Below, piece by piece: positions 1-40,046 of a stretch of DNA of 46,834 bases; positions within the stretch are counted from its first letter, which is position 1, and every line of letters begins with the position of its first letter. Source of the stretch: a virus; IMG/VR virus record IMGVR_UViG_3300013104_000010, positions 1 to 46,834 of that record. The stretch is one strand, 5' to 3'. The notes under the pieces were generated by a model. The model did not search any database and was not told the origin of the DNA. It was given only the letters and a program-made list of their open reading frames with translations. The translations under genes and the position numbers were made by a program.

Positions 1-123
1 CATCACCAGTTCTTCGGTCATGTTCTGTGCGCTATAGCCGTGTTCGAGCACCGTGCGCGGTTCATCCCGAACGGGGCGCAGTAGGCCACGGTCTAGCGTG
101 ACTTCGGAAAACCCACAGCCCAA
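1..123. repeat. Terminal direct repeat, left copy
   Basis: Bases 1-123 are identical to 46712-46834. The minus-strand tail-tip gene stays in frame when the two copies are superimposed, so the unique genome length is 46,711 bp. A repeat this short is more likely overlap from assembling a circular or circularly permuted molecule than a physical terminal repeat, but the sequence alone cannot decide. Confidence 0.95.
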
Positions 124-19393: not shown

Positions 19394-19481
19394 CTCGCCG
19401 CGTCGGCGGCCCCTTGTCGTTTACCCTCGGACGATTTGGGCATCGTTGAGAGGCCTGCCGAGCTGGCGTTGGTTGATCAGC

Positions 19482-19569: not shown

Positions 19570-19646
19570 TGGCGGAACTGAAGGGCTTCGAACCCTCGGC
19601 CTCACGCGTGACAGGCGTGCGCTCTAACCATCTGAGCTACAGTTCC
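19570..19646 (-). tRNA. tRNA-Asp (anticodon GUC), CCA encoded
   Basis: A full 77-nt cloverleaf on the minus strand: perfect acceptor stem GGAACTG/CAGTTCC, D arm GCTC-AGATGGTTA-GAGC, anticodon arm CACGC-CTGTCAC-GCGTG with anticodon GTC (bases 19612-19610), T arm GAGGG-TTCGAAG-CCCTT, discriminator G as usual for Asp, and encoded CCA. It would be released from the larger transcript by host RNase P and 3' trimming. GAC/GAT are common codons in this genome. Confidence 0.95.
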
Positions 19647-35913: not shown

Positions 35914-36084
35914 ATGTTAGAACAATTGAAAATTCTTCTAGATGCCGCCCGGTACAGGGCTAAAGCGGCTGAACAGGATGACGCTCATAATTACGATTCT
36001 TGCGTCGCTTTAGGGCGGCTTGTCGATCGACTTGAAAGCGCCGTCGCTGCGGCCGAAACTTATGAAGGGTTGATGTCGCAATGA
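35914..36084 (+). CDS. Small helical protein before DNA polymerase
   Basis: A 56-residue protein (MLEQLKILLDAARYRAKAAEQ...), all helical with coiled-coil character. ATG 35914; its stop overlaps the polymerase ATG as ATGA. The coupling suggests it influences polymerase synthesis or is a partner. No family known to me. Confidence 0.65.
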   Translation: MLEQLKILLDAARYRAKAAEQDDAHNYDSCVALGRLVDRLESAVAAAETYEGLMSQ

Positions 36085-38417
36085 CCAGCATGCCGCCACC
36101 TCCGCCGGCGCTGCCCTACGGCTTTCAGATCCAGGTCGGCCCCGGCGTCAGCACCGTGCTTGCCGATTGCGACTTTGAAACCTACAGCGCGGCAGGTTTT
36201 CGCTGGTGCGGGCCTACGCCGAAAAAACCATTGGGCCATTGGCAGGGGCCGCCAGGGGCTGCGCAGGGCAAGAAAGGTCTTCCGGTGATCGGCGTTCGGG
36301 TTTATGCCGAAGACCCGTCAACCGAAGTCCTCACGTTCAAATACGACCTGAAGGACGGACGTGGTAAGCGCGGATGGAAACCGGGTCAACCGAATCCGCA
36401 GGAGCTGTTCGACCACTTTGCCGCAGGCAAACTATGCGAAGCGCACAACGCAGGATTTGAACAGACGATATGGGAACAGGTCTGCGTTCCTAAATACGGC
36501 TGGCCCTCGATCAATCCAGCTCTCTGGCGCTGCAGTGCGGCCAAGTCCCGGGCATTCGGGCTACCTTCGGCCCTGGCGGATGTTGGTCAAGCGCTGAACC
36601 TGGATACGCAAAAGGACGCCGACGGCAAACGCCTGCTCAAGCTGTTCAGCTGGCCGAAAGACCCGACGAAAAAAGACCCGCGCTGGCGAGTGCTGCCCAG
36701 TGAAGAACCAGCCGACGCCGTCAAGCTCGACAACTACTGCGAAACCGATATTGAGGTCGAAGCCCAGGTCAGCGCACGGTGCCCAGACCTGATGCCGCAG
36801 GAACTGGACTATTGGCTGGCCGACCAGGCGATCAATCGTCGCGGGATCGGCGTAGATATGAACGCGGTGCACGACTGCATCGCCGTCGTCATGGAAGTTC
36901 TAGCCGCCTATGACGAAGAAATGTTCGACCTGATCGGTCTGCGCACCAGCCAGGCGAAAAAACTCGTCCAGTGGATGGCAGACAACGGCGTTCGCGGATC
37001 GGACGGGCGCCCGGTCAAGTCACTGGCTGCTGAAGAACTGGAATTCCTATATGAACAGCGCCATCTGTACCCGCACCCGGTCGGGCGCGTCCTGGAAATT
37101 CGGGGCCTGACGGCTTCGGCCAGCGTCAAGAAAGTGTTCTCCATGGCCAACCACGCCAACCGGAACGCGCGGCTATGCGACCTGTTCATTTACCACGGGG
37201 CGCGCACGGGGCGTGACACCCACGCCGACGTGCAGCCGGGCAACCTGCCGAAGACTGGGCCAGATCTGCGCTGGTGCGATAACCAGGGCGTCTGCCGGCG
37301 GCCCTACGCGAAGTACGTCGACAACTGCCCATGGTGCGGCTGTTCGGCGGCTTTCTCTACGGAAAAATCCCCAATCGAGCAGGACGAACGCTGGTGCTTT
37401 GAAGGCGTTGAACACGTTCTGGAAATCCTGCGGCTGCGCTCTATGGCGGCGCTCGAATACTTTTTCGGCGATGCGCTGCTCTGCATATCCGGTGTGATCC
37501 GATCACTCTTGGTCGCCGCCGAAGGTCACCGGCTGCTGTGCTCCGACTACGCCAGTATCGAGGCGGTCGTTTCGGCGGTACTGACGGGCGAGGCCTGGCG
37601 CGTCGAAGCGTTCCAACGTCGTGAGGATATCTACCTGCATGGCGCGGCCGGCGTAACCGGAAAAACCTACGAGTGGTACAAAGAAAACGGGTTTAAGAAG
37701 CACCCCGACCGCCAGAAGATCGGCAAGCCGGCGGAACTGGGTCTAGGGTTCGGCGGGTTCTCCGGCGCTCTGTTTGCCTTTGGTTTTGAGGGCGACAAGA
37801 AGGAAGCCGATAAGGTCTGGATGGCCTGGCGAGCGGCCAGTCCGCAGTTCGAGGAAATGTGGGGCGGCCAGTATCGAGGCGTGCCGTGGTCGCCGACAAG
37901 CATCGAGTTCTTCGGCCTTGAAGGCGCTGCGGTAAACGCCACACTGCACCCTGGCGAGATTTGCGGCTACCGCGGCATCAGCTACCAGGTTATCGACGAC
38001 GTGCTCTATTGCACGTTGCTGAGCGGTCGGCGCATGGCCTATCACCAGCCGCGGGTTTGGTACGGGGCGAAGCGTGACGGCTGGCAAGAGTGCTATTCGC
38101 TGACCTACATGACGTGGAACACCAACGCCAAGATGGGGCCCAAAGGCTGGGTTCGGATGGAAACCTACGGCGGCCGACTGTTTGAAAACGTCGTTCAGGC
38201 TACCGCCCGGGACATCATGGCCCATGCCGTGGTCAACCTTGAGCGCGCGGGCTACCCGGTCGTGCTGCGGGTGCACGACGAAGTGGCCGCCGAAGTGCCG
38301 AACGGTTTCGGATCCCTGCAGGAATTCGAAGCGATCTTGACCGATCTGCCGTGGTGGGCGAAAGGCTGGCCGATCCGTGCGGCTGGCTGGGAGGGGCAGC
38401 GCTACCATAAAGATTGA
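36081..38417 (+). CDS. polA: Family A DNA polymerase
   Basis: A 778-residue replicative DNA polymerase I-type enzyme. The 3'-5' exonuclease has motifs DFETYS (about residue 30), EAHNAGFEQTIWE (about 120), and YCETDIEVE (about 220). The polymerase motifs are A SDYASIE (about 488), B KIGKPAELGLGFGG (about 548) and C RVHDEV (about 731). Between TGRDTHADVQPGNLP and motif A lies a Cys-rich insert (GVCRRPYAKYVDNCPWCGC), a possible zinc ribbon. No 5' nuclease domain. The N-terminus starts with PPPPP, which would depend on EF-P. Confidence 0.95.
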   Translation: MTSMPPPPPALPYGFQIQVGPGVSTVLADCDFETYSAAGFRWCGPTPKKPLGHWQGPPGAAQGKKGLPVIGVRVYAEDPSTEVLTFKYDLKDGRGKRGWKPGQPNPQELFDHFAAGKLCEAHNAGFEQTIWEQVCVPKYGWPSINPALWRCSAAKSRAFGLPSALADVGQALNLDTQKDADGKRLLKLFSWPKDPTKKDPRWRVLPSEEPADAVKLDNYCETDIEVEAQVSARCPDLMPQELDYWLADQAINRRGIGVDMNAVHDCIAVVMEVLAAYDEEMFDLIGLRTSQAKKLVQWMADNGVRGSDGRPVKSLAAEELEFLYEQRHLYPHPVGRVLEIRGLTASASVKKVFSMANHANRNARLCDLFIYHGARTGRDTHADVQPGNLPKTGPDLRWCDNQGVCRRPYAKYVDNCPWCGCSAAFSTEKSPIEQDERWCFEGVEHVLEILRLRSMAALEYFFGDALLCISGVIRSLLVAAEGHRLLCSDYASIEAVVSAVLTGEAWRVEAFQRREDIYLHGAAGVTGKTYEWYKENGFKKHPDRQKIGKPAELGLGFGGFSGALFAFGFEGDKKEADKVWMAWRAASPQFEEMWGGQYRGVPWSPTSIEFFGLEGAAVNATLHPGEICGYRGISYQVIDDVLYCTLLSGRRMAYHQPRVWYGAKRDGWQECYSLTYMTWNTNAKMGPKGWVRMETYGGRLFENVVQATARDIMAHAVVNLERAGYPVVLRVHDEVAAEVPNGFGSLQEFEAILTDLPWWAKGWPIRAAGWEGQRYHKD

Positions 38418-38663: not shown

Positions 38664-39101
38664 ATGTTCGGTTTCTTGAAGAAAAAAGCAAAAGTTGCGA
38701 TGCGCGACGTTTCCAAGTTCGACAAAAAAGATCTGATGGAAGCCACCGTCGGTATCTGCGTTCTGGTCATGTACGCCGACGGTACCGCCGAAGACGCCGA
38801 ACGCAGCAAGATCCAAAAGATCCTCGACAACACCCCGGCGCTGGCGAACTTCGGTCCCGAGGTCCAGGTCTGTTTCAGCCGCTTCGACGCGCTGTGCCGG
38901 GACGCCGGCATGATCATGGCCCGTTCGCAGATCATGCGCGAAATCAAAGACTGTCAGGGCGACACCCGAGAAATGGAAGACGTTCTGGTTACCGGCCTGA
39001 CCGTCGCACTGTCCGATGGCGAAATGGAAGAGGCCGAGGAAAAGATTCTCAAAGAGGTAGCCAGCGCCTTCGGCCTTCGTCTCGAAAGCTTCCTCGGTTG
39101 A
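38664..39101 (+). CDS. TerB-like (tellurite resistance/DUF533) protein
   Basis: A 145-residue acidic helical protein of the TerB-like family. It shows the repeat of VLVMYADGTAEDAERSKIQKILDNTP and VTGLTVALSDGEMEEAEEKILKEVASAFGL. TerB proteins bind divalent metals at such Asp/Glu clusters (here YADGTAEDAE and LSDGEMEEAEE). The N-terminal FGFLKKKAK is basic. TerB homologues occur in several phages and phage-defence systems; the role in infection is not known. Confidence 0.8.
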   Translation: MFGFLKKKAKVAMRDVSKFDKKDLMEATVGICVLVMYADGTAEDAERSKIQKILDNTPALANFGPEVQVCFSRFDALCRDAGMIMARSQIMREIKDCQGDTREMEDVLVTGLTVALSDGEMEEAEEKILKEVASAFGLRLESFLG

Positions 39102-39307: not shown

Positions 39308-39475
39308 ATGTACGCCATCGTTACGGCAATCCTGATCGCTACAACGCCCGGTCTCGCGCCGGAAAACAAAGCTGCGTATTTTTCTGCCGAAGGCCCTGAA
39401 CTCTGCTACGCCCAGGCCGACAAGCTGAACGATCGCGACGACTCGACTCTTTACGTTTGCAAGGTGGCCGAATGA
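39308..39475 (+). CDS. Small secreted protein
   Basis: A 55-residue protein with a strong AAGGAGG site. The N-terminus (MYAIVTAILIATTPGLA) is a short signal peptide-like stretch. The rest (PENKAAYFSAEGPELCYAQADKLNDRDDSTLYVCKV) has two Cys that could form a disulfide. It is similar in plan to the 89-residue protein at 40043. Its stop overlaps the next ATG. Confidence 0.62.
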   Translation: MYAIVTAILIATTPGLAPENKAAYFSAEGPELCYAQADKLNDRDDSTLYVCKVAE

Positions 39476-39768
39476 GTAACCTGGTCTTGACCCGTACAGC
39501 GGGTAAATCGATTCGCCTGGAAATGCAGCCGGGCGCCTTTCACATCTTGACGGTGGCTTATGTGGGTGGCGAGCAGATCAAACTGGAGCTAACCAATCCA
39601 GACGGCTCAACGCAAAGCAAACGCCTCAACGTGGGCGCCGAATGGCCGATCGGTTCCGGACTGACGATCAAGCTGATCGGCATTCAGTTTCGGCAGGCCA
39701 AGCTGGGGTTCGATGCCCCGCAGAGCGTCAAGATCGTCAGGACTGAACTACTGGAGCGCGTGCAATGA
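39472..39768 (+). CDS. CsrA/RsmA-like RNA-binding regulator, apparently a fused tandem dimer
   Basis: A 98-residue protein. Start ATG 39472 overlaps the previous stop (ATGA). The N-terminus LVLTRTAGKSIRL is the CsrA beta-1 signature. Residues about 22-41 (AFHILTVAYVGGEQIKLELT) look like CsrA beta-2 to beta-4. A second core follows from residue 55 (GAEWPIGSGLTIKLIGIQFRQAKLGFDAPQSVKIVRTEL), ending LERVQ, closely like CsrA's C-terminal half including the RNA-binding Arg (R90, in VKIVRTEL). CsrA's site is made by beta-1 of one subunit and beta-5 of the other; here one of each is kept in a single chain. It could block or replace host RsmA/RsmE. Duplicate reading is my inference. Confidence 0.75.
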   Translation: MSNLVLTRTAGKSIRLEMQPGAFHILTVAYVGGEQIKLELTNPDGSTQSKRLNVGAEWPIGSGLTIKLIGIQFRQAKLGFDAPQSVKIVRTELLERVQ

Positions 39769-40046
39769 TCCTTGATATCACGATTGACCAGGCGCTGATC
39801 GAGCTCAAGCGAACCGAGAAAGCCCTACTGGCGTTGCGCAATGCGCGCAAACTGGGCGACCGGCGCTGCATCAATACTGGCTGCACTGCAGCATGGAAGC
39901 CGCAGCCTTTCGGTATCGGTGACGAGTGCGTGCACTGTGACGGCAAAATGGCACTATGCATGAACCCTATCGTTGAGCACGCAACGGCCAAGCGGGCGTC
40001 GCTCGACTTGACCCGTAAACTGGCAGATTTGAGGGCCGGACGATGA
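39765..40046 (+). CDS. Small protein with Cys motifs
   Basis: A 93-residue protein. The N-terminal helix (IDQALIELKRTEKALLALRNARKLGDR) is followed by RCINTGCTAAWKP and GDECVHCDGKMALC, five Cys and a His likely for one zinc site. The C-terminus is a helix (ATAKRASLDLTRKLADL). It overlaps the CsrA-like gene by four bases. Function unknown. Confidence 0.62.
   Translation: MILDITIDQALIELKRTEKALLALRNARKLGDRRCINTGCTAAWKPQPFGIGDECVHCDGKMALCMNPIVEHATAKRASLDLTRKLADLRAGR

Follow-up and report, generated by a model that had tools for sequence, protein, structure and literature searches.

A phage CsrA-family protein predicted to be a single-chain pseudo-dimer with one putative RNA-binding site

The window analysed here, an IMG/VR virus record, comprises 46,834 bases and contains the CsrA family at a single place. 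The protein under study, P0001, is the product of 39472..39768 on the plus strand, an open reading frame with its ATG at 39472, its TGA at 39766-39768 and 98 codons for 98 amino acids. The gene stands in a tightly packed strip, after those for an exonuclease, a Gp2.5-like SSB and a family A DNA polymerase, and the helicase of this neighbourhood is on the opposite strand. The flanking reading frames overlap it by ATGA at both ends, and the downstream one shares a further ATGA overlap with the frame that follows. The features of the locus are:

36081..38417, plus strand: family A DNA polymerase, in the same gene strip as the csrA-like gene (PHROG, polymerase comparison)
39308..39475, plus strand: upstream 55-aa ORF, ATGA overlap with the csrA-like start (ORF list; no PHROG match)
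39472..39768, plus strand: CsrA-family protein P0001, 98 aa, predicted single-chain pseudo-dimer (ORF, Pfam, phmmer, AlphaFold2)
39472..39594, plus strand: unit 1, residues 1-41, predicted beta1-beta4 without beta5 (AlphaFold2 strands; weak CsrA match of residues 12-57)
39481..39495, plus strand: LVLTR, residues 4-8, beta1 half of the retained putative RNA site (L4, L6 and R8 invariant in 12 members)
39610..39630, plus strand: predicted strand 47-53, in place of unit 1 beta5 and unit 2 beta1 (AlphaFold2, VIA-align)
39610..39765, plus strand: unit 2, residues 47-98, a predicted beta1-like strand followed by beta2-beta5 (Pfam, phmmer, AlphaFold2)
39727..39750, plus strand: VKIVRTEL, residues 86-93, beta5 half of the retained putative RNA site (I88, R90, E92 and L93 invariant)
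39765..40046, plus strand: downstream 93-aa ORF, ATGA overlap with the csrA-like stop (ORF list; no PHROG or Pfam match)

P0001 matches the Pfam CsrA family (PF02599) with 46.6 bits against a cut-off of 27 (E 3.4e-12), and its PHROG matches include a CsrA-like regulator family. The original prediction of a 98-residue CsrA homologue at this place thus holds, with the reading frame as described and the Pfam score above the curated cut-off. The best-matching stretch is residues 60-98, and RsmE and CsrA chains of the PDB match residues 53-98 without gaps (phmmer, best 1.1e-4). The N-terminal half by itself yields no Pfam CsrA hit; what ties it to CsrA is beta1, the predicted structure and a weak match given by residues 12-57. 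Residues 4-53 and 53-98 had both been assigned to CsrA: the PDB chains bear out the second assignment, and the boundary was slightly off, as the model gives 1-41 for unit 1, 47-53 for a common strand and an end at 98 for unit 2. P0001 resembles CsrA, RsmA and RsmE in beta1 (LxLTR, with L6, T7 and R8) and beta5 (VxIxRxEL), that is, in residues of the GGA site, R90 being the equivalent of CsrA R44 and E92 that of CsrA E46. It differs from them in architecture, since those proteins have about 60 residues and two sites per homodimer, whereas P0001 would have two units and one intact site; against the usual 60-75 residues with five strands and a helix, it has 98 residues and nine predicted strands.

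Among 50,697 phage records, tblastn with P0001 gave no full-length relative, none of the 17 matching records reaching 80% coverage. The IMG/VR scan with P0001 confirmed nine loci, one of them of equal length (L001), and with L001 as query it gave 25: 21 intact proteins of 94-104 aa (L018-L038, L018 being the contig of L001), a split copy (L039), two single-unit CsrAs (L040 and L041) and a divergent protein of 98 aa (L042), of which a further scan found a 92% relative (L043). At L039 (3527-3783) the csrA-like gene extends over two reading frames, as a broken copy or an assembly error. Six isolate Vibrio phages (D93, D71, D81, D82, vB_VpP_1 and vB_VpM-pA2SJ1) encode proteins of the same length and motif order; those of the four D phages are identical, those of vB_VpP_1 and vB_VpM-pA2SJ1 are 63% and 61% identical to D93, and the D93, vB_VpP_1 and pA2SJ1 members are annotated as hypothetical or carbon storage regulator. 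The version in Pseudomonas phage Psp6 has 81 aa, is encoded downstream of the phage's DNA polymerase and is annotated csrA/carbon storage regulator; it has two IMG/VR relatives at 70%. The suggestion that homologues of the same architecture be sought has yielded 25 other IMG/VR records and seven isolate phages (the six of Vibrio and Psp6), which with the window make 33 intact records, several of them identical. In the first alignment, each of the 20 members has a Pfam CsrA match at E <= 1; the 20-row alignment omits L021 and L022 (identical to L020) and L027 (identical to L026).

The gene family is under purifying selection, with 981, 613 and 3178 nucleotide differences at codon positions 1, 2 and 3 among 15 coding sequences and a pN/pS of 0.11-0.35 across six homologue pairs. 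The long form is found at none of the 29 loci confirmed in a scan of bacterial genomes, made with patterns from two peptides only; 28 of these encode a single CsrA unit and one (L047) an RsmN-like protein. With two profiles at E <= 1, no CsrA-like ORF was detected at L074-L079, six phage loci whose DNA polymerases are related. In ten records (L018, L019, L026, L028, L029, L031-L034 and L038) the match to the family A polymerase lies in 3-4 pieces, which may reflect intervening sequences or else strong divergence; in the L042 record it is a single piece, at 52%.

The conservation pattern concerns the RNA site. In CsrA, each of the two sites combines beta1 from one chain with beta5 from its partner (PMC7652899). 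Five clade consensuses, representing 21 sequences, have 12 residues identical throughout (M1, L4, V5, L6, R8, L78, F80, P83, I88, R90, E92 and L93). The eight columns that we take to be equivalent to CsrA RNA-site positions give 30 of 32 clade agreements, a score equalled by 0 of 100000 random column sets. Two of these positions, L4 and R44, are given in PMC7652899. A 12-row alignment, which additionally takes in Psp6, L120, L043 and two further Vibrio proteins, has ten invariant columns, namely L4, L6 and R8 in beta1 of unit 1 and L78, F80, P83, I88, R90, E92 and L93 in beta4-beta5 of unit 2. Strand 47-53 has no invariant residue among the 12 aligned members and does not keep the LTR motif, and all 12 lack a second beta1 of the LxLTR type and a first beta5 of the VxIxRxE type. 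As had been predicted, LVLTR occurs only in the first unit (residues 4-8) and VKIVRTEL only in the second (residues 86-93), and the column score and the ten invariant residues at the two ends argue for exactly one conserved beta1 and beta5 site. Judged from the sequences, the invariant residues together would form one canonical CsrA site, the other being degenerate, and we infer one RNA site per molecule. The same pattern would also result from a CsrA core with an insertion, so that it supports one site per chain and not duplication.

Such an insertion is known from RsmN/RsmF of P. aeruginosa, a homodimer that holds beta1 and beta5 of its own chain together via a 16-residue insertion, an inserted helix (PMC3791407); its R8-E64 salt bridge is intrasubunit, whereas it is intersubunit in RsmA (PMC3791407). 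P0001 resembles RsmN in that beta1 and beta5 of one chain are predicted to make one site, R8 and E92 corresponding to the R8-E64 pair. It could accordingly be an RsmN-like homodimer with two sites, each chain having one CsrA core and an unrelated beta-rich insertion between beta2 and beta3. RsmN-like phage proteins exist: L002 (5001-5207), L003 (5001-5207) and L047 (405-611) are phage or phage-like CsrAs of 68 aa in which beta2 and beta3 are separated by an insert like that of RsmN/RsmF. Conserved ends around a variable middle that is hard to match to CsrA are likewise expected from an insertion.

Against a profile of bacterial CsrA, the middle segment of P0001 (residues 12-57) obtains 6.1 bits, a score reached by 3 of 2000, 7 of 3000 and 5 of 4000 shuffles in separate runs and by 9 of 2828 windows of 46 aa from the other genes called in the window. 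The segment thereby resembles CsrA beta3-beta4, which speaks against an unrelated insertion. The homologues are less telling, as L019 (76 of 4000 shuffles) and Vibrio D93 (102 of 4000) are marginal, and Psp6 (405 of 4000) and L042 (975 of 4000) are not significant; when 24 distinct single-domain CsrAs of phages supply the profile, P0001 alone stands out (7 of 3000). When the middle segments of the five clades are pooled, 0 of 4000 shuffle pools reach the sum, and 1 of 4000 with the second profile. As shuffling destroys strand periodicity, all these shuffle values are somewhat generous. In hhalign, the middle segment, taken without beta1, falls short of significance against CsrA, with 21 of 300 column shuffles scoring at least as high, and the comparison of the two units with each other has a probability of 0.5%; on these two values, proof of duplication through profile comparison was dropped. 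A CsrA origin of the middle segment is thus weakly indicated by sequence, and this weakness leaves room for an RsmN-like protein with a beta-rich insertion.

The predicted fold bears on the same choice. AlphaFold2, given the 20-row alignment, models P0001 with nine strands (2-9, 13-19, 22-32, 35-41, 47-53, 57-61, 64-72, 75-82 and 87-90) at a mean pLDDT of 84.1 and a pTM of 0.73; residues 93-98 have a pLDDT below 50 and are not assigned as a helix, so that no C-terminal helix is predicted, a further likeness to RsmN. The loops joining the first four strands have 3, 2 and 2 residues in each half, as would be expected if the units were alike. Where a CsrA pair has ten strands, the predicted chain has a single strand between the units in place of a beta5 and a beta1, and its order is beta1-beta4 of unit 1, strand 47-53 and beta2-beta5 of unit 2. 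The homologue L019, modelled from 17 sequences without P0001, has the same strand order to residue 78 (best pLDDT 72.6, the remaining four models 47.5-59.2). The models of both proteins lack the RsmN-type insertion, helical and about 16 residues long, between beta2 and beta3. In P0001 the place of the helix is taken by predicted strands of CsrA-like number and spacing, at odds with an RsmN-like architecture.

Structure searches lend something to both sides. Foldseek found nothing in the PDB at E <= 1e-3 for the P0001 model; RsmF/RsmN chains were the best of the CsrA family (probability up to 1.00; 4k59 with probability 1.00, TMt 0.69 and E 5.3e-2), which favours the RsmN-like alternative, and RsmE reached 0.96. 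In VIA-align, RsmF was placed on model residues 1..93 (Z 5.3, rmsd 2.8, 55 residues, 38% identity) and residues 0..54 of CsrA 5z38_H on 46..98 (Z 5.0, rmsd 3.5, 53 residues), so that strand 47-53 and unit 2 align to a complete CsrA chain, against the RsmN-like alternative. The Z scores of CsrA-family rows (4.3-5.3) are lower than those of unrelated beta folds (up to 8.0), as with the second model, that of L019 (RsmF 4.7, CsrA 4.7, unrelated folds up to 7.7). With both placements, the same-sheet and the swapped places of beta1 are occupied. In our own reading of the alignments, a fused, swapped pair would give this pattern: beta1 of unit 1 would adjoin the sheet of unit 2, and the strand in the middle would take the position of unit 2 beta1 in the other sheet. 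Among predicted viral structures, 14 match at E <= 1e-3 with query TM-scores of 0.63-0.83, most over nearly the whole chain, and one of them carries the name carbon storage regulator. A0A2H4PHU8 (81 aa, 33%) is, at a guess from its length and identity, the Psp6 protein. The AlphaFold2 model and the structure alignments are therefore in line with the two tandem CsrA units in one chain of the original prediction. On sequences and models together, we consider it fairly probable that P0001 is a CsrA pseudo-dimer in a single chain, with one GGA-type RNA site, acting as a monovalent regulator, and we hold the RsmN-like alternative to be unlikely, if still worth keeping in mind.

It could also be argued that a pseudo-dimer has lost its RNA function and acts by protein contacts, for example through inactive mixed dimers with host RsmA or RsmE. 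The middle strands are strongly divergent, and proteins such as FliW and CesT are known to bind CsrA; however, the residues kept family-wide are those of the RNA site, and a closed single-chain sandwich would have no free swap partner, which makes this very unlikely. That P0001 is an ordinary phage CsrA of inconsequential extra length, working as a dimer like host RsmA, we find hardly credible: CsrA is frequent in phages, with matches to the E. coli protein in 94 of 50,697 phage records, and the annotation of the vB_VpP_1 and Psp6 members says no more than carbon storage regulator, but the second beta1 and first beta5 motifs are missing throughout the family alignment.

The single-chain pseudo-dimer would have arisen by head-to-tail fusion of two CsrA units, in which the last strand of unit 1 (beta5) and the first of unit 2 (beta1) collapsed into a single one. 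The remaining beta1, in unit 1, and the remaining beta5, in unit 2, would then meet, as these strands do across CsrA chains, to form one GGA-type RNA site, the second site having decayed. P0001 would most likely be a monovalent RNA-binding regulator made alongside the replication genes, whose vicinity suggests early expression, and its targets may be single GGA sites, such as Shine-Dalgarno regions, in host or phage mRNAs; RNA binding and targets are both inferred. Full repression of glgC needs both CsrA sites, although one of the known targets carries just one (PMC7652899), so that a monovalent regulator is at least as compatible with the literature as the dominant competitor that had also been envisaged. 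CsrA can bridge two sites on one RNA, and RsmE binds a multi-site sRNA sequentially and cooperatively (PMC7652899). A one-site protein should therefore suit single GGA sites and compete poorly at multi-site sponge RNAs, by which it would also be poorly captured. A bolder proposal, which we regard as doubtful, is that the monovalent, single-chain CsrA of several phage lineages binds single GGA sites without bridging two, thereby escapes the host's multi-site RsmY/RsmZ-type sponges and imposes RsmA-like repression that the host's Gac/Rsm switch could not relieve. No Csr/Rsm sponge RNA is found in the window at Rfam gathering thresholds.

If the pseudo-dimer reading is right, P0001 is a natural counterpart to CsrA dimers engineered to carry R44A on one surface (Mercante et al. 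2009, according to PMC7652899), which have one working site on a dimer-like body; those are laboratory mutants, whereas P0001 would be a natural fusion. It would then offer a direct route to the purpose of bivalent Csr/Rsm binding, be it sponge capture, repression strength or both, and phage CsrAs would be more than copies of host CsrA. CsrA in phages is already known (PMC7366521, PMC8450108), it has been proposed that phage RsmA may suppress CRISPR-Cas (PMC8450108), and the annotated members of Psp6 and vB_VpP_1 are already public as carbon storage regulators. The word 'tandem' is absent from PMC7366521 and PMC8450108, and no report of a tandem, fused or single-chain CsrA was recognised by title or abstract in a literature search whose library leaves out most subscription papers and all bioRxiv preprints. 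The phage single-domain CsrAs PTXU04 gp28, Parlo and Pavtok are phage-borne too, but they are single units of 60-66 aa; Serratia phage Parlo (60 aa) and Erwinia phage Pavtok (63 aa), single units by their length, are phage examples in PMC8450108. E. coli phage PTXU04 has a helicase, exonuclease, SSB and polymerase module like that of the window, with its csrA beyond the polymerase:

29991-30191 of L122, minus strand: PTXU04 gp28 (csrA, single unit, 66 aa)

PTXU04 gp28 was scored semi-fit, its knock-down giving smaller plaques, and is among the genes toxic on expression or interfering with infection (PMC11879866).

The closest named phages by polymerase are Pseudomonas phages vsMR (54.4% identity) and MR14 (53.7%), and the DNA polymerase alone points to Pseudomonas phages as kin; megablast of two 25-kb stretches that jointly cover the window matched no phage record. 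Elsewhere in the window lies one RNA pair:

19425-19462 and 19570-19646, both minus strand: abiF RNA / tRNA-Asp (gtc) pair

The abiF RNA (RF03085, 43.5 bits, cut-off 37) is about 100 bases from the tRNA. Just before the csrA-like strip, 38664-39101 on the plus strand matches PHROG 632 (tellurite resistance) at 3.1e-46. The 93-aa protein encoded immediately downstream of P0001 has paired cysteines (CINTGC and CVHC), and its homologues, up to 73% identical, lie near the csrA-like gene in 7 of the 27 loci compared (L018, L026, L027, L028, L029, L031 and L032).
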